Assembly: GCF_022843985.1 (NCBI RefSeq)
Contig: NZ_JALHMP010000014.1
Span: 1 to 64,000, forward strand
Direction: 5' to 3'
From: Phreatobacter sp.
GTDB taxonomy: Bacteria > Pseudomonadota > Alphaproteobacteria > Rhizobiales > Phreatobacteraceae
DNA: 64,000 nucleotides
The translations under genes were made by a program, and so were the position numbers. Below the pieces are notes generated by a model. It was given only the letters and a program-made list of their open reading frames with translations. It did not search any database and was not told where the DNA came from. Of the stretch, positions 23,325 to 32,676 are shown one piece after another. The number at the start of each line of letters is the position of its first letter. Positions within the stretch are counted from its first letter, which is position 1.

Positions 23325-23336
23325 GGAGAACGCGTG

Positions 23337-24629
23337 ATGACCCGACTAACTCGCCGCGCCTTCGGCCTCTCGGCCGCCTCCGCCGGCCTCGCCTTTGCCG
23401 CACCCGCAACACTCTCGGCGCAGACGCAAGCGCGGCTGGTGATCATCGGCGGCGGTTTCGGTGGCGCATCGGCCGCACGCTACGCCCGCATCGCATTTCC
23501 GAACGTCGCGGTGACGCTCATCGAACCCAAGACCAGCTTCGTTACCTGCCCCTATGGCAACCTGCTGCTGGCCGGCGAGCGCACGCTGCCGCAGATCACG
23601 CATTCCTATGACGGTCTGAAGGCGCGCGGCGTCAACGTGGTCCACGACTGGGCGGATGGCATCGACGCGACCGCCAAGACGGTCCGGCTGCGCGGCCGGG
23701 CGACGGTCGCCTACGACAAGCTCATCCTGTCGCCGGGCATCGCCATCCGCTGGAACGCGATCGAAGGTTATACCGAGGCCGCCGCCGAGGCTCTCCCCCA
23801 TGCTTGGATTCCCGGCGCTGGCGAGCAAACGACCCTGCTGCGCCGTCAGCTCGAGGCCCTGCCCGACGGCGGCGTCGTGGGCTTCGCCATTCCGCCGAAC
23901 CCGTTCCGTTGCCCGCCCGGGCCCTATGAGCGGATCAGCCTGGTGGCGAGCTATCTCAAGCGGCATAAACCGCGCGCGAAGATCCTGGCGCTCGACGCCA
24001 AGGACGCCTTCTCCAAACAGGGCCTCTTCCAGGACGCCTGGAACGAGCTCTATCCCGGCCTGATCGAATGGGTACCGCTCAACAAGGACGGCAAGGTCAC
24101 CCGGGTAGACGCCCAGGCGAAGATTTTCGAGACCGAACTCGGCACGCGCCACCGCGTCGATGTCGGCAACGTCATCCCGCCGCAGTCGGCGGCGAAGATC
24201 GCCATCGACGCGGGACTGACGAACGAGACCGGCTGGGTGCCGGTCAACCCGCGGACCTTCGAGGCGACCCGGGCCCGCGACATCCACGTCATCGGCGACG
24301 CCAATGTCGGCCAGGTCATGCCCAAGTCGGGCTATATCGCCAATTCGACGTCCAAGGTGGCGGTGGCGGCGGCCGTCGCGGCTCTGGAAGGACGGCCCGC
24401 GCCAGAGCCGACCGTCTATTTCAACACCTGCTACAGCCACGTCGGACCGGAATACGGCATCTCTGTCGTTGGTGTGTTCCGCCCGAGCGAGAACGGCTTC
24501 GTCGAGACGCCGAACTCGGGAGGCGTCTCGCCGCGTGGTCCTCTCGCCGAGCAGCGCGAGCAGCGCCGGCTCGAGGCGCTCCATGCCGACGCCTGGTACG
24601 GCGCCATCACCCGGGACGCCTTCTCGTGA
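23337..24629 (+). CDS. fccB: Flavocytochrome c sulfide dehydrogenase flavoprotein subunit (FccB/SoxF-like)
   Basis: A 430-aa FAD enzyme oxidising sulfide in the periplasm. It begins with a Tat-like signal (MTRLTRRAFGLSAASAGLAFAAPATLSAQ) and the dinucleotide motif VIIGGGFGGASAARYAR. The redox cysteines are probably in SFVTCPYGNLLLAG and FRCPPGPYER. The C-terminal FCSD-type domain (YFNTCYSHVGPEYGISVVGVF) is characteristic. GTG ATG at 23334-23339 gives two possible starts after a GAGGAGAA site. Its stop overlaps the GTG start of soxY. Confidence 0.92.
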   Translation: MTRLTRRAFGLSAASAGLAFAAPATLSAQTQARLVIIGGGFGGASAARYARIAFPNVAVTLIEPKTSFVTCPYGNLLLAGERTLPQITHSYDGLKARGVNVVHDWADGIDATAKTVRLRGRATVAYDKLILSPGIAIRWNAIEGYTEAAAEALPHAWIPGAGEQTTLLRRQLEALPDGGVVGFAIPPNPFRCPPGPYERISLVASYLKRHKPRAKILALDAKDAFSKQGLFQDAWNELYPGLIEWVPLNKDGKVTRVDAQAKIFETELGTRHRVDVGNVIPPQSAAKIAIDAGLTNETGWVPVNPRTFEATRARDIHVIGDANVGQVMPKSGYIANSTSKVAVAAAVAALEGRPAPEPTVYFNTCYSHVGPEYGISVVGVFRPSENGFVETPNSGGVSPRGPLAEQREQRRLEALHADAWYGAITRDAFS

Positions 24630-25419: not shown

Positions 25420-26520
25420 TCACATCACCCGCCCCGCGACGCGGTGCACAGCGTTGTTGCAATAGCCCCGCGGATTCCAGGGAGCGTGGTCGATGGGCTG
25501 GGCGTTGCCCGCCACATCCCGCGCCTGTGCCATCAGCGCCACCGGGCCGGGTGGCAGGCGGAGTGTCGCGGAGAACCGGCGCCAGGCGAAGGCCTCCCCG
25601 GCTTCGGCGACCCGGGCCGGCGCCCAGGTGGCGCCGCCGTCGGCTGAGACCCGTACATCAGAGACCGGCGTCGCGCCGCTCCAGGCCCAGCCCTCGACTG
25701 TCAGCGCCTCATCCGGTGACGCGCGGAACCCCGAGGCGGGACGGGTAATCACCGATTTCACCGGCATGTCGGTGATCACCGCGAAGGACGCAAGGTCGAA
25801 CGGTTCCCCCGGGCTCGCCGGCACCACCGGCAGCCTATAGTCGGTGCCGGTCATCTTCTCGCCGTCGTGCTCCCGGTCGCGGATGTCGAGGCGGTCGAGC
25901 CATTTCTGCCAGGCCGATCCCGGATAGCCCGGGACGACGACCCTGAGCGGTCCGCCGTGCAGCCGCGGGAGCGGCGCATCGTTCATCTTGAAGGCAACCA
26001 GCGTCTCGGGGGCTAACGCCTTGGCGATGGGGATGCCGCGCGACAGCGCCGGACGGTCCGGGATCGTGAGGCTGCGGTCGGGGCTGTGATGACCCGTGTA
26101 GACGGCGGAGGGCTTCACGCCGGCGCGCTCCAGCAGGTCCCGCATCCTGACGCCGGTCCAGCGGGCGCATCCCACCGCCCCGTCGCGCCATTGCGCGCCC
26201 GAGACGGGCGGCTCGAGAAAGGCGCGGCCGTTGCCGGCGCATTCCAGCACGGCGGTGATCGTCACGACGGGGAAGGACTGCATGAGTTCCGCCACGCTGA
26301 GCGACAGCGGCCGCTCGACTTCCCCCGTGACGTCGAGGCGCCACCCCTTGGGGTCGGCTGCGGCAGGCATGTCGCCGTTGTTGCGGACGAAGAAGGCCTC
26401 GGCCGGGGTCAGCATCGGATCGAGCGCGTCGGCCGGGGGCTCGCCGTTGACCGCGTCGTCGTCGAGCCAGCGAAGGCGCGTCTTGGCGGCCAGGGCGGTG
26501 TCGGTCGACGAATGCGGCAT
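25420..26520 (-). CDS. Sulfite oxidase-family molybdoenzyme (SoxC/SUOX-like)
   Basis: A 366-aa enzyme of the eukaryotic-type sulfite oxidase fold. The Mo-ligating cysteine is in TAVLECAGNGRAF, with GAVGCARWTGVRMRDLL and RLHGGPLRVVVPGYPGSAWQKWLDRLDI as Mo-pterin domain landmarks. The C-terminal dimerisation domain (VRVSADGGATWAPA, AQARDVAGNAQP) is complete. Unlike SoxC it has no obvious Tat signal at its N-terminus (MPHSSTDTALAAKTRLRWLDDDAVN), so it may be cytoplasmic. It is convergent with soxZ, 16 bp apart, and probably oxidises sulfite to sulfate. A heme domain is absent. Confidence 0.88.
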   Translation of the reverse strand: MPHSSTDTALAAKTRLRWLDDDAVNGEPPADALDPMLTPAEAFFVRNNGDMPAAADPKGWRLDVTGEVERPLSLSVAELMQSFPVVTITAVLECAGNGRAFLEPPVSGAQWRDGAVGCARWTGVRMRDLLERAGVKPSAVYTGHHSPDRSLTIPDRPALSRGIPIAKALAPETLVAFKMNDAPLPRLHGGPLRVVVPGYPGSAWQKWLDRLDIRDREHDGEKMTGTDYRLPVVPASPGEPFDLASFAVITDMPVKSVITRPASGFRASPDEALTVEGWAWSGATPVSDVRVSADGGATWAPARVAEAGEAFAWRRFSATLRLPPGPVALMAQARDVAGNAQPIDHAPWNPRGYCNNAVHRVAGRVM

Positions 26521-26694: not shown

Positions 26695-26805
26695 ATGACG
26701 AACGAAAGTCGATGGAAGGCCCAAGGAGTTTGTTGCCAAAAGGCTCATATTCTTCATACCGACCAAGCAGACGATCTCATCGCCTCCACCGACCGTTCTT
26801 TTTAG
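26695..26805 (+). CDS. Short ORF with Cys-Cys pair, possible leader peptide
   Basis: A 36-codon frame, MTNESRWKAQGVCCQKAHIL and then a polar tail ending STDRSF. A GGAGG site lies ten bases before the ATG. The adjacent cysteine codons (TGT TGC) upstream of sulfur-related genes suggest a possible cysteine-sensing leader, but the frame ends before the probable promoter of the met operon at 26818, so it would need its own transcript. No family is recognised, and it may be chance. Confidence 0.25.
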   Translation: MTNESRWKAQGVCCQKAHILHTDQADDLIASTDRSF

Positions 26806-26817
26806 AGGATGCTTTCA

Positions 26818-26847
26818 TTGACGCCCGACGCCTGGCAGGGGCATAGT
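26818..26847 (+). promoter_or_regulatory. Candidate sigma70 promoter of the met operon
   Basis: TTGACG at 26818-26823 and CATAGT at 26842-26847 are separated by 18 bp, a good match to the -35 box and a weaker match to the -10 box. Transcription would begin near 26854, directly ahead of the riboswitch aptamer at 26881. Confidence 0.5.
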
Positions 26848-26880: not shown

Positions 26881-26930
26881 TCGCGGCATTTGATGGAGCA
26901 GCTTGCACCGCGTCACCAAGGGCTAAAGCG
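26881..26930 (+). ncRNA. SAM-II (SAM_alpha) riboswitch aptamer
   Basis: A P1 stem forms from CGCGG (26882-26886) and CCGCG (26908-26912). The loop carries CATTTGATGG followed by GCTTGCA, and the 3' part ends GGGCTAAAGCG. The ordered motifs ATTTGA, CTTGCA and GCTAAAG with a five-base P1 are the recalled hallmarks of the SAM-II pseudoknot class found upstream of methionine genes in alphaproteobacteria. Downstream lie a CCACGAA/TTCGTGG hairpin (26931-26949), a leader ORF with AAGGAG and then metNIQ. SAM binding would be expected to lower expression of methionine uptake. Confidence 0.85.
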
Positions 26931-26949
26931 CCACGAAGGACATTCGTGG
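26931..26949 (+). promoter_or_regulatory. Hairpin between riboswitch and leader ORF
   Basis: CCACGAA at 26931-26937 pairs perfectly with TTCGTGG at 26943-26949 across a five-base loop. It starts one base after the GCTAAAGCG of the SAM-II aptamer and precedes the AAGGAG site at 26960. It has no T-run, so it is more likely part of the expression platform or a structural spacer than a terminator. Confidence 0.55.
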
Positions 26950-26973
26950 GCTCCCTCTCAAGGAGTTGGTCCG

Positions 26974-27075
26974 ATGAATTCCATCGCTGCTGGAGCCTCC
27001 CCTCCGGTGTTTTCCTCCCAAACTGGACACTGCCGCCGGGTGGATGAGCGGGAGAGCTGTTGTCGTCGGTTCTGA
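26974..27075 (+). CDS. Cys-containing leader ORF downstream of the SAM-II riboswitch
   Basis: A 33-aa frame starting MNSIAAGASPPVFSSQTGH and ending CRRVDERESCCRRF. AAGGAG at 26960-26965 is eight bases from the ATG, an excellent site. The C-terminal third carries three cysteines, including adjacent TGT TGT codons three codons before the stop, next to arginines. Short peptides with clustered Cys codons and CRRVD/CxR-type ends have been reported as cysteine-responsive attenuators before sulfur genes in other bacteria; the resemblance here is my inference. It lies between the aptamer and the met genes, so it could add a second, cysteine-based input. Confidence 0.5.
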   Translation: MNSIAAGASPPVFSSQTGHCRRVDERESCCRRF

Positions 27076-27143
27076 CGCGACCGCCTCTCGCCCTCGCCAT
27101 CCCCTCCCAAGGAGACGCTGGCCCGTCCGGCGGCAGATTTTCC

Positions 27144-27395
27144 ATGTCCAGATCATCCTCCTATCCCCCTCTCCGCTCCGACGTCACGCTGATCGAACTC
27201 GGAGACGATGCCGTCGGGCTCGCCGTCCGTGAGCGCTCGGGATACCGCTTCTTCGCCGCTGTCCAGACACTCTCCGCCATCGACAGCCGGCTCTTTGCCT
27301 CGTTGAAGGCGCTGCGCCAGGCGGCGGCCGAGCGGCACGACGCCAGTCGGCGCGGCCGTCCCGGCGCCCCCCGAAGCCGCGCTCTCGCCGCCTGA
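27144..27395 (+). CDS. Small hypothetical protein upstream of metN
   Basis: An 83-aa frame with a recognisable protein-like core (SDVTLIELGDDAVGLAVRERSGYRFFAAVQTLSAIDSRLFASLKALRQAA) and an Arg/Ala-rich tail. An open frame extends 28 codons upstream, but the ATG at 27144 is favoured by the composition change. No named family is recognised. It lies in the met transcript between the riboswitch and metN, so it probably belongs to the same SAM-controlled unit. Confidence 0.55.
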   Translation: MSRSSSYPPLRSDVTLIELGDDAVGLAVRERSGYRFFAAVQTLSAIDSRLFASLKALRQAAAERHDASRRGRPGAPRSRALAA

Positions 27396-27448: not shown

Positions 27449-27514
27449 ATGTCCACCGCATTCCAGTCGACGGCGGTCGCCACCGCCGCAGCGCCGGCGA
27501 GGCCGTCGCCATGA
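27449..27514 (+). CDS. 21-aa mini-ORF overlapping the metN start
   Basis: ATG at 27449 opens MSTAFQSTAVATAAAPARPS and one more proline, with the stop TGA overlapping the metN ATG (ATGA). The exact overlap, with a CTCCAGG stretch a few bases upstream of the mini-ORF, suggests translational coupling to metN. The peptide itself is low complexity and carries no Met or Cys run, so it is more likely a coupling ORF than a sensor. It may also be chance. Confidence 0.3.
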   Translation: MSTAFQSTAVATAAAPARPSP

Positions 27515-28629
27515 ACGCCGTCACCCCCTTCGCCGACGCCCTCCCCCTCGCGGGGAATGCGCCGCCTCCGCCGCCGCGTTCAGGCGCCGCGATCCGCTTC
27601 GAGGCTCTCTCCAAGCGCTTTGCCGCCAAGGCGGGTGCAGCCGAGGTCACGGCCCTCGATGCGGTGACGCTCGACGTCGCACCCGGCTCCATCACCGGGA
27701 TCATCGGCCGCTCGGGTGCCGGCAAGTCGACGCTGCTGCGCACGATCAACGGTCTCGACCGGCCGACCGACGGCCGGGTCCTCGTCGACGGCATCGACGT
27801 CGGCCTGCTCGATCCGGCGGGCCTTCGAGCTCTCCGGCGGGAGATCGGCATGATCTTCCAGCATTTCGCGCTGCTGTCGTCGCGCACGGTCTTCGGCAAC
27901 ATCGCGCTGCCGCTGGAGCTCGCAGGCACGCCGCGGGCGGAGATCGCCCGCCGGGTTGACGAACTCATCGACCTGGTCGGGCTCGCCGACAAGCGCGGCC
28001 GCTATCCCGCAGAACTGTCGGGCGGGCAGAAGCAGCGCGTCGGCATCGCCCGGGCGCTGGCGACGCGGCCCCGCGTGCTGCTCTCCGACGAGGCGACCTC
28101 GGCGCTCGATCCGGAGACGACGCAGTCCATTCTCGCGCTGCTCAAGCACATCAACGCGCTCACCGGCGTCACCGTCGTGCTGATCACCCACGAGATGTAC
28201 GTCATCAAGGAGATCTGCGACAGCGTCGCGGTCATCGAGGCCGGTCGCATCATCGAGACGGGCGATGTTTACGATGTCTTCGCCCGGCCGCGCTCCGAGA
28301 CGACCCGCAGCTTCGTCGCATCCGTGACCGGCGCAGCCCTTCCCGAAGCCTTCGCCGCGCGGCTGACGCCCCAGCCGAAGGGGGCGCTGCAGACAGTGCT
28401 GCGCATCGTCTTCACCGGCGACAACGCGACGGCACCCGTCATCTCGCGGCTGTCCCGCTCCCTCGACGTCGACATCACCGTCATCGCCGGCCAGGTCGAC
28501 GCCATCGGCGGCCGCCCCTTCGGCAATCTCACCGTGGCCGTGCCGGCTCGCCAGGACGTGGTCCAGGCCGTCGTCGCGCTGGTGAACAGCTACGGCCTTC
28601 AAGCGGAGGTCCTCGGCCATGTCGCCTGA
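27511..28629 (+). CDS. metN: Methionine ABC transporter ATP-binding protein MetN
   Basis: A 372-aa ATPase. After a 28-residue Ala/Pro-rich extension the ABC domain starts at IRFEALSKRF. Walker A GRSGAGKSTLLRTINGLDRPTDG, signature LSGGQKQRVGIARALA, Walker B VLLSDEATSALDPETT and H-loop ITHEMYVIKEICD are typical MetN sequences. The C-terminal NIL/ACT-like domain (LQTVLRIVFTGDNATAPVISRLSRSLDVDITVIAGQVDAIGG) senses methionine for transinhibition. It overlaps metI by 11 bases. Confidence 0.96.
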   Translation: MNAVTPFADALPLAGNAPPPPPRSGAAIRFEALSKRFAAKAGAAEVTALDAVTLDVAPGSITGIIGRSGAGKSTLLRTINGLDRPTDGRVLVDGIDVGLLDPAGLRALRREIGMIFQHFALLSSRTVFGNIALPLELAGTPRAEIARRVDELIDLVGLADKRGRYPAELSGGQKQRVGIARALATRPRVLLSDEATSALDPETTQSILALLKHINALTGVTVVLITHEMYVIKEICDSVAVIEAGRIIETGDVYDVFARPRSETTRSFVASVTGAALPEAFAARLTPQPKGALQTVLRIVFTGDNATAPVISRLSRSLDVDITVIAGQVDAIGGRPFGNLTVAVPARQDVVQAVVALVNSYGLQAEVLGHVA

Positions 28630-29284
28630 GATCATCAGACTGCTCATCGAGGCCCTCGGCCAGACCCTCTACATGGTGGCCGCGGCGGGTCTCATCGGCA
28701 CGGCGCTGGGCTTGCCCCTCGGCGTGTTCCTCGCGACCTCCGGGCGCGGCGAACTGTTCCAGGCCGTGACGCTCAACCGCGCGCTGGGCCTCGTCGTCAA
28801 CGCCACACGCTCGACGCCCTTCATCATACTGGTGGTGGCGATCATCCCCTTCACGCGGCTCGTCGCCGGAACCTCCATCGGCACGACGGCGGCCATCGTG
28901 CCGCTGACGGTGGCGGCGACGCCCTTCATCGCCCGCATCATCGAGGCGGCGATCCGCGAGGTGGATCCGGGCCTCATCGAAGCTTCGCGGGCGATGGGCG
29001 CGACGCCGCTGCAGATCGTCCGCAAGGTGCTACTGCCGGAGACGCTGCCGGCCATCGTCCTCGGCCTGACGCTCACCGCCGTCAGTCTCATCGGCTACTC
29101 CGCCATGGTCGGCGCGGTCGGCGGCGGCGGGCTCGGCGACCTCGGCATCCGCTTCGGCTACCAGCGCTTCATGCCCGAGGTCATGGCGGCCGTCGTTATC
29201 GTCCTCATCGCCCTCGTCCAGGCCGTGCAGAGCCTCGGCGACCGGATCGCGCGGCGCGTCAACAAGCGCCTGCGCTCAGCCTGA
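28619..29284 (+). CDS. metI: Methionine ABC transporter permease MetI
   Basis: A 221-aa membrane protein with five hydrophobic segments. LYMVAAAGLIGTALGLPLGVFL, NATRSTPFIILVVAIIPFTRLVAGTSIGTTAAIVPLT and EASRAMGATPLQIVRKVLLPETLPAIVLGLTLTAVSLIGYSAMVGAVGGGGLGDLGIRFGYQRF are all diagnostic of MetI. Its start overlaps metN. It forms the D/L-methionine channel. Confidence 0.96.
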   Translation: MSPEIIRLLIEALGQTLYMVAAAGLIGTALGLPLGVFLATSGRGELFQAVTLNRALGLVVNATRSTPFIILVVAIIPFTRLVAGTSIGTTAAIVPLTVAATPFIARIIEAAIREVDPGLIEASRAMGATPLQIVRKVLLPETLPAIVLGLTLTAVSLIGYSAMVGAVGGGGLGDLGIRFGYQRFMPEVMAAVVIVLIALVQAVQSLGDRIARRVNKRLRSA

Positions 29285-29319: not shown

Positions 29320-30126
29320 ATGACCACGTTCATCGACCGCCGCGCGCTCCTCGCCGGAACGGCCGCCGGCCTCATCGCGGCCCCTGCCCTCGTCCGGGCC
29401 CAGGCCCGCACGCCGCTGCGCGTCGGCGTCACCGCCGGCCCGCACGCCCAGATCCTCGAGGCGGTGAGGCCGGTTGCGGCCGGCCGCGGCCTCGACCTCC
29501 GGATCGTCGAGTTCTCCGACTACATCCTGCCGAACGCGGCGCTGGCCGGCGGCGACCTCGATGTCAACTCCTACCAGCACAAGCCCTTCCTCGATCAGCA
29601 GAATGCCGACCGGAAATACGGCCTGGTCGGCGTCGGCTTCACCGTCAACTTCCCGATCGGCGTCTATTCCAAGAAGCACAAGGCCTTCGCCGAGGTGCCG
29701 GCCGGCGCGCAGGTGTCGATCCCCAACGATCCGACCAACGGCGCCCGGGCGCTGCTGCTCTTCCAGGACAAGGGCATCATCAGGCTGAAGGACGGCGTCG
29801 GCCTCAAGCCCACCGTCGCCGACATCACCCAGAACGAGAAGCGCCTGCGCTTCATCGAGCTGGAGGCGGCGCAGACCGCCCGCTCTCTCGACGATGTCGC
29901 TGCCGCCGTCATCAACACCAACTACGCGCTCTCGGTCGGCCTTAATCCGGGCCGCGACGCCATCCTGCGCGAGGATCCGAAGGGCCCCTACGTCAACCTC
30001 ATCGCGGTGCGCGAGGCGGACAAGGACAAGCCCTGGGTGAAGCCCTTCGTCGAGAGCTACCAGTCGGCGGAAGTGAAGGCCTTCATCGACCGGACCTTCC
30101 AGGGTTCGGTCCTGCCGTCCTGGTGA
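29320..30126 (+). CDS. metQ: Methionine ABC transporter substrate-binding protein MetQ
   Basis: A 268-aa periplasmic binding protein of the NlpA/MetQ family. A Tat-like signal (IDRRALLAGTAAGLIAAPALVRAQA) replaces the lipobox of enteric MetQ. LRVGVTAGPHAQILEAVRPVA, DYILPNAALAGGDLDVNSYQHKPFLD, SIPNDPTNGARALLLFQDKGIIRLKDG and the end VKAFIDRTFQGSVLPSW are family blocks. An AAAGGACTTGCC stretch precedes the ATG. It is followed by a strong hairpin. Confidence 0.96.
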   Translation: MTTFIDRRALLAGTAAGLIAAPALVRAQARTPLRVGVTAGPHAQILEAVRPVAAGRGLDLRIVEFSDYILPNAALAGGDLDVNSYQHKPFLDQQNADRKYGLVGVGFTVNFPIGVYSKKHKAFAEVPAGAQVSIPNDPTNGARALLLFQDKGIIRLKDGVGLKPTVADITQNEKRLRFIELEAAQTARSLDDVAAAVINTNYALSVGLNPGRDAILREDPKGPYVNLIAVREADKDKPWVKPFVESYQSAEVKAFIDRTFQGSVLPSW

Positions 30127-30559: not shown

Positions 30560-30904
30560 ATGCACCGTCGAACCCTCACCAAGCAGATCATGGTTCGTTT
30601 GTCGGAAGCCGACTATGCGGCGGTCGTACGACACGCTGAGGAAGGCGGCACGCAACCTGCTGTGCTGGGACGAGACCTCATGATCGCTACGGTGCGCGGC
30701 GGAGAGCGCAGCGTTATCAATCAAGCCGACCTGCGGGACTTGCTGGCCGAACTCGGGCGCCAGGGCAACAACATCAATCAGATCGCCCGCCGCGTGAATT
30801 CTGGCGAGGCGGTCGGCCTCTCAGCCGAAAAAGTCGAGGCACTCGTGGAAACTCATCGGGAGTTGCTCACCACAGCGTTATCGCTGGCACGGAAATCCAG
30901 ATGA
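30560..30904 (+). CDS. mobC: MobC-like plasmid mobilisation relaxosome protein
   Basis: A 114-aa DNA-binding protein. After a basic start (MHRRTLTKQIMVRLSEADYAAVVRHAEEGG) it carries LRDLLAELGRQGNNINQIARRVNSGEAV, the conserved MobC segment with the GNNINQIA signature. MobC helps the relaxase open oriT. The ATG at 30560 is chosen, but an in-frame ATG at 30503 is also possible. The gene overlaps the relaxase start by four bases (ATGA). Confidence 0.9.
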   Translation: MHRRTLTKQIMVRLSEADYAAVVRHAEEGGTQPAVLGRDLMIATVRGGERSVINQADLRDLLAELGRQGNNINQIARRVNSGEAVGLSAEKVEALVETHRELLTTALSLARKSR

Positions 30905-32676
30905 TTAATCGGTCGTCATGGATCCAGCTAGGCGCCATGCCTCAGCATCTCGCGCGTACGGACACGAACAAACGCGTTGAGGTCGTGGCCGCTGCTGGGC
31001 GGGCCAGCCTCAATGACATAGACCTCGACCTCCAGATGTTCGACGCAATTTCTCACACCAACCGCCGCGTCAAACGCACATTGATCCACGTCCGCATCGC
31101 GCCCGAGAAATCTGTCTCAGAGGCCGACTTGTTGCAGTTGATCAAACTAAACGAACTGATCCACGGCATTCCATCTGATCGGCCGAGGATCGTGGTCAGG
31201 CATTCGAAGGGTGAGCGGGCTGACCATTTCCACGTCCTTTGGCCGTCGGTTTGCGCCGATGGAAAATGCGTCAGAAGCCACGACAACTACCTGCGCGATG
31301 AGATCATCTCCCGCGAGGCTGAGCTTTCACTCGGTGAGCGCATCATCCCCGGCCCGCGCATGCCGATGGTGATCGCGCACTTCGAGCAGTCAGGCCGCGA
31401 TCAGCAGGCTGACGCACTCAAGCGTGCTCCCCGACGGGACCGTCGGTCGCGGATGGGTGATAAAGCGTTCAACATGGCTGCGAAAAGCGACGCAGACATC
31501 GCCTCCTTCCAGACACGCGTTTTGGATGCATGGCTGGAGCACGGGGCCGCTGGAGACTTCGTACAGGCCCTGCGCCACCAAGGAATGGGACTGGCGCTCG
31601 GCGACAAACCAACCTCGCGCGGACCCACAATTCTCGTCGTTGAAGACGCGACAGGCTTCCATGCATCGCTCCGTCGAACAATCAATGCGGCCGCAAAAGC
31701 CCGCGGCCTCTCGATTAATCTGACAGCTGACCAGCTTCCCGACTTCATCAATCTCCAGCCGCTCGCGGAGGCGCGGGAGAATGGCTTTCGGGAGGCACTT
31801 GAGCGGGCGTTGGAAGCCGGCCGGAGCGAAGCCAAGCTCCTCGCGGCAGAGATAGAAGAGGATGGTGACAGTGCAATGGCCAAGCCGGCCGAGATTTCGC
31901 TGCCGCCTAAGCCACCGCTTACGTTCAGGCAGACGCTAAAGGCTCGCCGCGATGAGATCAAAAAGCACTATGAGATCCGTGATGATGTGCGCCGTGCGCG
32001 GGTGGATCGCGCTTTCGCGGCGGCTGGAGTTTGCGCCGACAAGAGGACGCGCAGGATTGTCTTCGCAGCAGCAGCAGCCGGTGTGCTCCTGAGCGGCGGA
32101 GGGCTCGGTCTCGCTCTGATTGCTGGCGGTGTTGCTCGGGTCCTGCTGCCTACGCGTGAACTCGCCCGAGCCCGCGCAAAGGCTGCAAGCATCGAACGCA
32201 GGCGGGATCGGGACGCCCGGTCGGAAGAACTCCATCAGGCCTACGCCCTCGTCCGCGAGCAATTCCGCGGGCAGAAGCGACGGACGGCATCCATTCGGGT
32301 ATTCTCACCCGCAGACATCGACGATCCGTCTGCTACCGGTCGCGCGCCGAACCTGCGGACGCCGCTAACGAACAACCGGTACAGAGTGCACCCACTTGGG
32401 GTCCCGCCTGCGGGCCCACCCGAAGTCGCTGCCCAAACCAAGGCTTCGCCTGCCTTGTCCAAGGCCTCGTCTGTGTCGCCCGATAACGGGCGTCCACAGG
32501 GGCCTGGCAAGCCAACTGGGTCGGTGCAGCGTTCCGCCTCGTTACGGCAGTTTCAGGCACCCGCGGTGCCTCCGAGCGGGAAATGGGAAAACCCAAGATC
32601 GCGCGACCGCCCCAGAGGCGCTGCCATCGTCAAGACCTCCCCTGGGAAATCGCGAAACGAAGGAATTGATCGATGA
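30901..32676 (+). CDS. Relaxase/mobilization nuclease
   Basis: A 591-aa relaxase candidate. The N-terminal part has a metal-binding histidine triad in VVRHSKGERADHFHVLWP (His101, His109, His111), the usual third relaxase motif. A helical middle region and the pair AAAAAGVLLSGGGLGLALIAGGVARVLLP near residue 390-415 give one hydrophobic stretch. The C-terminal 130 residues are Pro/Ser/Arg-rich and probably disordered. It follows mobC with an ATGA overlap and overlaps the next gene by four bases. The catalytic tyrosine was not located by eye. Confidence 0.8.
   Translation: MINRSSWIQLGAMPQHLARTDTNKRVEVVAAAGRASLNDIDLDLQMFDAISHTNRRVKRTLIHVRIAPEKSVSEADLLQLIKLNELIHGIPSDRPRIVVRHSKGERADHFHVLWPSVCADGKCVRSHDNYLRDEIISREAELSLGERIIPGPRMPMVIAHFEQSGRDQQADALKRAPRRDRRSRMGDKAFNMAAKSDADIASFQTRVLDAWLEHGAAGDFVQALRHQGMGLALGDKPTSRGPTILVVEDATGFHASLRRTINAAAKARGLSINLTADQLPDFINLQPLAEARENGFREALERALEAGRSEAKLLAAEIEEDGDSAMAKPAEISLPPKPPLTFRQTLKARRDEIKKHYEIRDDVRRARVDRAFAAAGVCADKRTRRIVFAAAAAGVLLSGGGLGLALIAGGVARVLLPTRELARARAKAASIERRRDRDARSEELHQAYALVREQFRGQKRRTASIRVFSPADIDDPSATGRAPNLRTPLTNNRYRVHPLGVPPAGPPEVAAQTKASPALSKASSVSPDNGRPQGPGKPTGSVQRSASLRQFQAPAVPPSGKWENPRSRDRPRGAAIVKTSPGKSRNEGIDR

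Follow-up and report, generated by a model that had tools for sequence, protein, structure and literature searches.

In the window analysed here (the whole stretch of 64,000 nucleotides of Phreatobacter sp. contig NZ_JALHMP010000014.1, positions 1 to 64,000), genes resembling metNIQ are preceded by an RNA that resembles a SAM-II riboswitch and by a 33-codon ORF with cysteine codons near its stop (Table 1). The locus raises two questions: whether the RNA is a SAM-II riboswitch, and what role, if any, the short ORF plays between the RNA and the transport genes.

Table 1. Features of the leader region and operon (window coordinates)
Feature	Position	Strand	Basis
Promoter-like site, TTGACG - 18 - CATAGT	26818-26847	+	Scan, 9/12 matches; shuffle mean 0.0
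SAM-II-like RNA, whole element	26882-26954	+	Pocket letters and P1 retained
P1 stem, CGCGG (26882-26886) / CCGCG (26908-26912), closing loop L1	26882-26912	+	Sequence, covariation
L1 contents: UUU; GGAGC; GCUUGC	26889-26891; 26895-26899; 26901-26906	+	Sequence
P2b pseudoknot helix, 3' strand, GCUAAAGC	26922-26929	+	Conserved GCUAA
P3 inserted hairpin, CCACGAA-GGACA-TTCGTGG	26931-26949	+	Covariation; not in Rfam SAM_alpha model
P2a 3' strand, GCUCC (partner GGAGC 26895-26899)	26950-26954	+	Sequence
Shine-Dalgarno AAGGAG of leader ORF	26960-26965	+	Sequence
Leader ORF, 33 aa, MNSIAAGASPPVFSSQTGHCRRVDERESCCRRF	26974-27075	+	Cys codons 27031-27033, 27058-27060, 27061-27063
Strand A, UGCCGCCGG, over first Cys-Arg-Arg codons	27031-27039	+	Complementary to strand B
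Candidate hairpin GCUGG-CCCGU-CCGGC, then GGCAGAUUUU	27117-27141	+	Sequence
Strand B, CCGGCGGCAG	27127-27136	+	Includes 3' arm of candidate hairpin 27117-27141
Small protein, 83 aa, undescribed family	27144-27395	+	ORF; family member often 3' of element
metN-like ABC ATPase with NIL domain	27511-28629	+	Pfam ABC_tran and NIL; TIGR02314 396.9 bits, cut-off 499.7
metI permease	28619-29284	+	NF008049 239.4 bits, cut-off 212
metQ/NlpA-type binding protein	29320-30126	+	PF03180 4.7e-88; TIGR00363 264.9 bits, cut-off 228.85

Structure and affiliation of the RNA element

All of the letters on which a sequence-only reading of this DNA had based its "good SAM-II aptamer" are in place: the CGCGG/CCGCG stem, ATTTGA (26888-26893), CTTGCA (26902-26907) and GCTAAAG (26922-26928). 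As in SAM-II, P1 closes the L1 loop (99.6% of cells paired) and UUU, UUGC and GCUAA(A), the letters of the SAM pocket, are all present; GCUUGC (26901-26906) is a possible partner for GCUAAAGC, with the U and one A staying unpaired as they do in SAM-II. A further SAM-II trait, the uninterrupted continuation of P2b by P2a, is absent, the covarying hairpin P3 being inserted there. The Rfam model SAM_alpha (RF00521), a sub-threshold result from which had been named in advance as evidence against the aptamer, gives the window RNA 18.8 bits against a gathering cut-off of 36, because the P3 hairpin sits between two parts of the pseudoknot strand. Score and architecture together rule out plain SAM-II, the core nonetheless being present, and the RNA is better described as a SAM-II-related variant with an inserted hairpin, a putative pseudoknot aptamer whose ligand we infer to be SAM. 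Other sub-gathering Rfam matches in the region (BLV_package 22.9, SAM-Chlorobi 19.7 and others) were dismissed as chance. The host genome also carries a separate, canonical SAM-II (65.9 bits) directly 5' of an O-succinylhomoserine sulfhydrylase gene (NF005696, 688.4 bits, cut-off 675).

Covariation supports P3 and one pair of P1. Across 91 distinct rows, P1 and P3 together are 98.2% paired, in an alignment that was built using P3 and hence leans towards the structure; slid controls are only 25.8-52.4% paired. Seven of the 11 pairs change on both sides, six in P3 and one in P1 (55 cells), and none of 500 shuffles attains any of five covariation measures. Within P3, all six modelled pairs change on both sides and 97.1% of cells are paired; within P1, one of five pairs does so (CG to GC, in 8/91 distinct rows) and three never vary. 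UUU and UUGC occur in all 92 rows of alignment A3; UUU, UUGC and GCUAA are retained together in 92/92 rows of A3 and 97/99 of A4, and GCUAAA, with its third A, in 78/92 and 97/99, all of these being counts of letters for which the search models themselves select. Some of the roles that we assign to the pocket positions UUU, UUGC and GCUAA(A) are presumed.

The evidence for P2a is of another order. By row (n = 138), its strands combine as GAGC/GCTC in 23 cases and GGGC/GCCC in 28, with the crossed combinations GGGC/GCTC and GAGC/GCCC found once and never, respectively. When 66 distinct contexts are counted once each in a fixed register, there is no excess over shuffles (789/5000 reach the observed value), and P2a as a general helix was therefore dropped; in a free register, 14/2000 shuffles reach the observed value (58 representatives of 82 rows, with ten rows lacking a regular P3 left out).

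To the extent of the accessible text on SAM-II (RF00521, SAM_alpha; PMC1273637), the likeness comprises P1, the P2b pseudoknot, UUU/CUUGC/GCUAA(A), occurrence in alphaproteobacteria and association with methionine-related genes, whereas the window RNA has P3 between P2b and P2a, scores below gathering and, as proposed below, would gate a leader ORF instead of a metabolic gene. The accessible part of PMC6061858, which is the source of other pocket roles, presents SAM-V as sharing the SAM-binding core with SAM-II and names a P3 in it; the likeness of the window RNA to SAM-V lies in that core and in a P3 by name only, the positions of P3 not having been compared, and Rfam returns no SAM-V match at gathering in the window.

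The element RNA is almost identical in eight same-genus loci (L003-L010), and TTGAC of the promoter-like site shows no variation across nine. Directly 5' of the -35 box, within 26760-26830, a conserved TTCTTTTTAGAGGA (alignment A6, L002-L010) becomes the full palindrome TTCTTTTAAAAGAA in L009 and L010; this stretch looks like a candidate transcription factor operator.

Distribution and leaderless members

Searches with two models of the element, R1 (built from nine loci) and R2 (built from 92 rows), show that it recurs across the host class. R1 matches 86 of 397 genomes of the host order, in 27 of 141 genera. R2 matches 85 of 385 genomes of the host class at E <= 1e-3; among 14 weak places inspected (L348-L361), 13 reach the SAM_alpha cut-off and so count as canonical SAM-II, two of them in genomes with an additional strong match and 11 in weak-only genomes, and since 11 of the 13 weak-only genomes thus hold canonical SAM-II, the class count is taken as 72/385 (E <= 1e-5), not 85. 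Among 398 sampled genomes of the phylum, R2 matches 16 at E <= 1e-5, every one in the host class. The exact core pattern occurs, among the matches listed, in Bosea, Microvirga, Methylopila, Rhodoplanes, Labrys, Nitrospirillum, Reyranella and Tistrella.

A scan of 80 other loci with Rfam at gathering finds SAM_alpha in 14, with no P3-type copy passing: these are the 13 weak R2 matches (30-37 bits) counted as canonical SAM-II and the first copy of a tandem pair, L313:94-170 (38.6 bits), whose second copy, L313:235-311, is P3-type and has no SAM_alpha match. Tandem copies, spanning 94-311 in L313, are also seen in G733:C16, G771:C1 and L294.

Leaders were counted in three sets, whose loci are akin to one another, so that the counts are non-independent: an order set, in which 99 places were found and 89 (nine same-genus and 80 retrieved) are counted, ten places of 28 to 38 bits standing outside and four of those ten never having been retrieved; a named set of 117 elements, from organisms partly overlapping the order set; and a class set of 69 loci, seven of them with no regular-expression match, giving 62 elements. 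Two of the weakest R1 matches in the order (L365, L367) have no GCTAA and look false; among four other order places inspected, L362-L364 are P3-type and L366 has no clear P3. Minimal members (L131, L136, L139, L138, L141) lack P3, carry a Shine-Dalgarno sequence near or inside the GCTAAG strand and have leaders as short as MTPRLC.

Leaderless elements of the class set stand directly 5' of genes for O-succinylhomoserine sulfhydrylase (L299, L327), O-acetylhomoserine sulfhydrylase (L322, L323, L336, L339), MetE (L343), CysG (L295) and a sulfate-binding protein (L297), all scoring above curated cut-offs; for the leaderless L332 the gene encodes a methylenetetrahydrofolate reductase slightly below its cut-off (276.2 against 293.7). 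P3 is not distinct in L336 and L343. That leaderless members precede metZ/metY-type genes fits SAM as the ligand. The position of related elements before methionine genes, together with retention of the SAM-II pocket letters, also argues against an alternative that we consider unlikely, in which the leader is a Cys-run attenuator as in mycobacteria and the RNA before it senses a signal other than SAM or merely sets the fold; that alternative draws on the insertion of P3, on the third A of GCUAAA, which is missing in 14/92 rows of A3, and on SAM binding being a deduction for this RNA.

The leader ORF and its cysteine codons

The 33-residue ORF, with its AAGGAG site and Cys cluster, is found where the sequence-only reading had placed it, and its frame and Cys codons, the conservation of which had been left as the deciding question, are conserved in relatives. 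Leader starts were picked solely by start codon and Shine-Dalgarno sequence. Of the 89 elements of the order set, six have no start, two open an ORF over 70 aa and two an ORF under four codons; among the 78 distinct short leaders, 70 have Cys within the last 12 residues, and Cys codons number 154/870 in frame, whereas the other two frames have 29 and 6. The named set (seven elements with no start, six with long ORFs, one under four codons) yields Cys in 84 of 96 distinct leaders, with 182/1086 Cys codons in frame against 52 and 10, and the class set (five with no start, 20 running into long ORFs) yields Cys in 23 of 32, with 55/372 in frame against 17 and 7. As a control, 20 canonical SAM-II loci were treated likewise: 11 lead into an ORF longer than 70 aa, two have no start and one falls under four codons; Cys occurs in two of the six short ORFs, and the three frames hold 2, 6 and 0 Cys codons of 64.

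All sets combined, Cys is present in 170 of 189 distinct leaders and Cys-Cys in 73. Cysteine makes up 9.1% of leader residues versus 0.49% in the downstream genes of the order set, and TGT accounts for 272/409 of the leader Cys codons versus 53/397 in downstream genes, where it is rare. The use of both Cys codons, the dominance of one frame and the preference for a rare codon point to decoding as the selected function of a leader that is coding. A short translated-looking ORF with in-frame conserved Cys codons near its stop, as in an attenuator, is therefore present.

Leader lengths run from 5 to over 40 residues, very short examples being MTPRLC and MTQAC, and the only widely common feature is a terminal Cys/Arg cluster. 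A role in trans for this small peptide, such as binding metal or thiols, in place of one in stalling is very improbable: clusters such as CCMCC and CCGCCCC, found in some leaders, would suit such a role, but so wide a range of lengths, down to MTPRLC and MTQAC, with only the terminal cluster in common, does not, and the TGT bias points to decoding. Least probable is control of the operon by the SAM-II-like riboswitch alone, with the ORF as a by-product of no regulatory role, for which one may cite the short ORFs that GC-rich leaders commonly hold and the 20/62 class elements that lead straight into a long ORF (some of these being methionine genes), but which is at odds with an 18-fold enrichment of Cys that is concentrated in one reading frame and draws on both codons with a preference for TGT, in peptides otherwise unlike in sequence and length.

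Some Bosea-type leaders have no terminal Cys. A leader subtype, LRLSAFL or LRRLSAFL, with few or no terminal Cys residues was observed in Bosea and relatives (L143, L154 and L156 among them); in this subtype the Cys sensor has possibly changed or been lost.

Mycobacterial polycysteine leader ORFs are reportedly the subject of work by Canestrari from 2020, which we know through a citing paper. Within the accessible portions of PMC1262725 and PMC9094748, polycysteine leader ORFs precede mycobacterial cys operons and resemble the present leaders in their runs of Cys codons near the stop, in being short ORFs before sulfur genes and in having no conserved terminators, but differ in that those portions describe no aptamer before the ORF and in belonging to another phylum. 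Likewise, uORFC-8-2 before cysS in Rhodobacterales is an alphaproteobacterial uORF with tandem Cys codons, but, as far as the available text of PMC8632094 goes, it forms two stems plus a terminator, lacks a SAM-II-like domain and belongs to cysS. In the metA leader of Sinorhizobium meliloti, too, a SAM-II comes first, and an upstream start codon and a terminator lie between it and the start that is used, but there AUG1 shares the reading frame of metA and the main text of PMC9373788, in its accessible part, leaves cysteine unmentioned. A literature search covering few subscription papers, and others in part, found neither this RNA nor the pairing of an aptamer with a Cys leader described; given that coverage, the novelty of the P3-type RNA and of its pairing with a Cys leader is provisional, SAM-II and SAM-V, mycobacterial Cys-run leaders and a Cys uORF before cysS being known already.

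Downstream genes, folding and proposed mechanism

The leader does not lie directly before metNIQ; metNIQ is downstream, with the 83-aa ORF between the leader and metN. The MetI and MetQ/NlpA models pass their curated cut-offs, and the MetN score stays below its own. A member of the small-protein family starts within 500 nt in 72/89 (order), 75/117 (named) and 18/62 (class) elements. No Pfam model matches any of five members of the family (consensus AYVIEVGDEAAGLVVREGRGFRFFAASPAFRALDGQRFASPEAAERAARRLAR), and no NCBIfam model matches the one in the window, whose confidently predicted fold (three strands, helix, strand, helix; mean pLDDT 86.1) resembles no PDB entry at E <= 0.001.

Sulfur genes follow the element in many loci. 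A co-directional ABC importer or SsuD-type gene is found in 34/89 order loci; in the other 55 no such gene lies in the same run, and many of these have the small protein only, or genes such as those for GGDEF-EAL proteins. Representatives above curated cut-offs include a taurine binding protein (L113), SsuA and an alkanesulfonate monooxygenase (both L081), a sulfate binding protein (L086), SfnB (L072) and an O-acetylhomoserine sulfhydrylase (L064). The binding protein of L129, considered as a sulfur candidate, is the molybdate protein ModA behind an opposite-strand gene and was rejected.

The flanks of the operon have features of their own. Upstream, a region resembling sulfur oxidation includes a flavoprotein-like ORF (23334-24629, +), known from the ORF list, and a sulfite-dehydrogenase-type protein (25420-26520, -) whose scores with the SorA, SorT and SoxC models fall short of their curated cut-offs. 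3' of metQ, a 591-aa ORF (30901-32676) has, in the ORF list, the look of a relaxase or mobilisation protein.

Between the leader and the small ORF, folding with no ribosome modelled gives a best A:B pair probability of 1.0 in all nine genus loci, and L009 and L010 carry a compensated A:B change (CTGCCACCGG with CCGGTGGCAG). The L009 counterpart of the candidate hairpin is CACCGG-CGACGC-CCGGTG, followed by six T. A modelled ribosome footprint on strand A abolishes A:B, and one placed over the last two Cys codons or the stop codon leaves it intact; since the first Cys codon lies inside strand A in the window genus, stalling there and stalling at the terminal pair would act oppositely. When strand A is blocked, pairing of the hairpin region reaches 0.91-0.92 in L005 and L006, 0.42 in L007 and at most 0.16 in the other six loci, including the window.

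Terminator-like hairpins after the leader occur in 19/78 cases in the order set versus 13 in one shuffle round, in 24/96 versus 6 in the named set and in 8/32 versus 2 in the class set; a general intrinsic terminator was dropped, the order set being scarcely above its shuffles. Ribosome-blocked folding of ten loci with their terminator yielded no clean attenuator, and no single attenuator logic emerged overall. Terminators being clear in some clades only, Rho-dependent or translational versions are likely elsewhere. Masking of the Shine-Dalgarno sequence by the stretch after P3 is 0.63 versus 0.50 in shuffles (74 related loci; Wilcoxon p about 1e-6), and CUCC of GCUCC (26950-26954) has the leader Shine-Dalgarno sequence as an alternative partner.

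The best explanation of the locus, and one that we regard as probable, is a two-input switch for the small-protein-metNIQ operon: a SAM-gated attenuator that senses Cys-tRNA. The first input would be the SAM-II-related aptamer with P3. The pocket and the methionine genes found beside such elements make SAM its most likely ligand, and its nearness suggests that it may alter access to the ribosome-binding site of the 33-codon leader ORF. In the window clade, one and the same CUCC serves P2a and the Shine-Dalgarno mask, so that ligand binding would free the leader; L138 and L141 have their Shine-Dalgarno AAGGAG within the pseudoknot strand GCTAAGGAG, where binding would hide it. As these geometries oppose each other, the aptamer could either free or hide the leader site. 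The second input would be the clustered Cys codons near the leader stop, mostly TGT family-wide, at which scarce cysteinyl-tRNA would cause the ribosome to pause; which downstream structure forms, A paired with B or the hairpin just 5' of the small ORF, would then depend on the paused ribosome, and expression of the uptake operon is predicted to peak under a shortage of sulfur amino acids. The two stacked sensors on one transcript that the sequence-only reading had envisaged thus survive as the best reading, comparison across genomes backing the Cys leader strongly; the RNA is not the good SAM-II then supposed, and related RNA elsewhere directly precedes methionine genes with no leader.

For the family as a whole, we give even chances to the broader proposal that this is an undescribed class of RNA, widespread in alphaproteobacteria, whose SAM-II-derived aptamer controls translation of a Cys-sensing leader peptide, not of a metabolic gene, and which acts as a two-input gate (SAM and cysteinyl-tRNA) over operons for acquiring sulfur whose first gene encodes a member of a new small-protein family. 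If this is true, about one-fifth of the sampled alphaproteobacterial genomes would bear a regulatory RNA that is missed by the Rfam model, and in many of the carriers a metabolite aptamer would be linked to a sensor that is itself translated. The RNA would then be a natural example of a riboswitch with a leader peptide as its output, and would mark a set of sulfur uptake operons together with an unstudied small protein.
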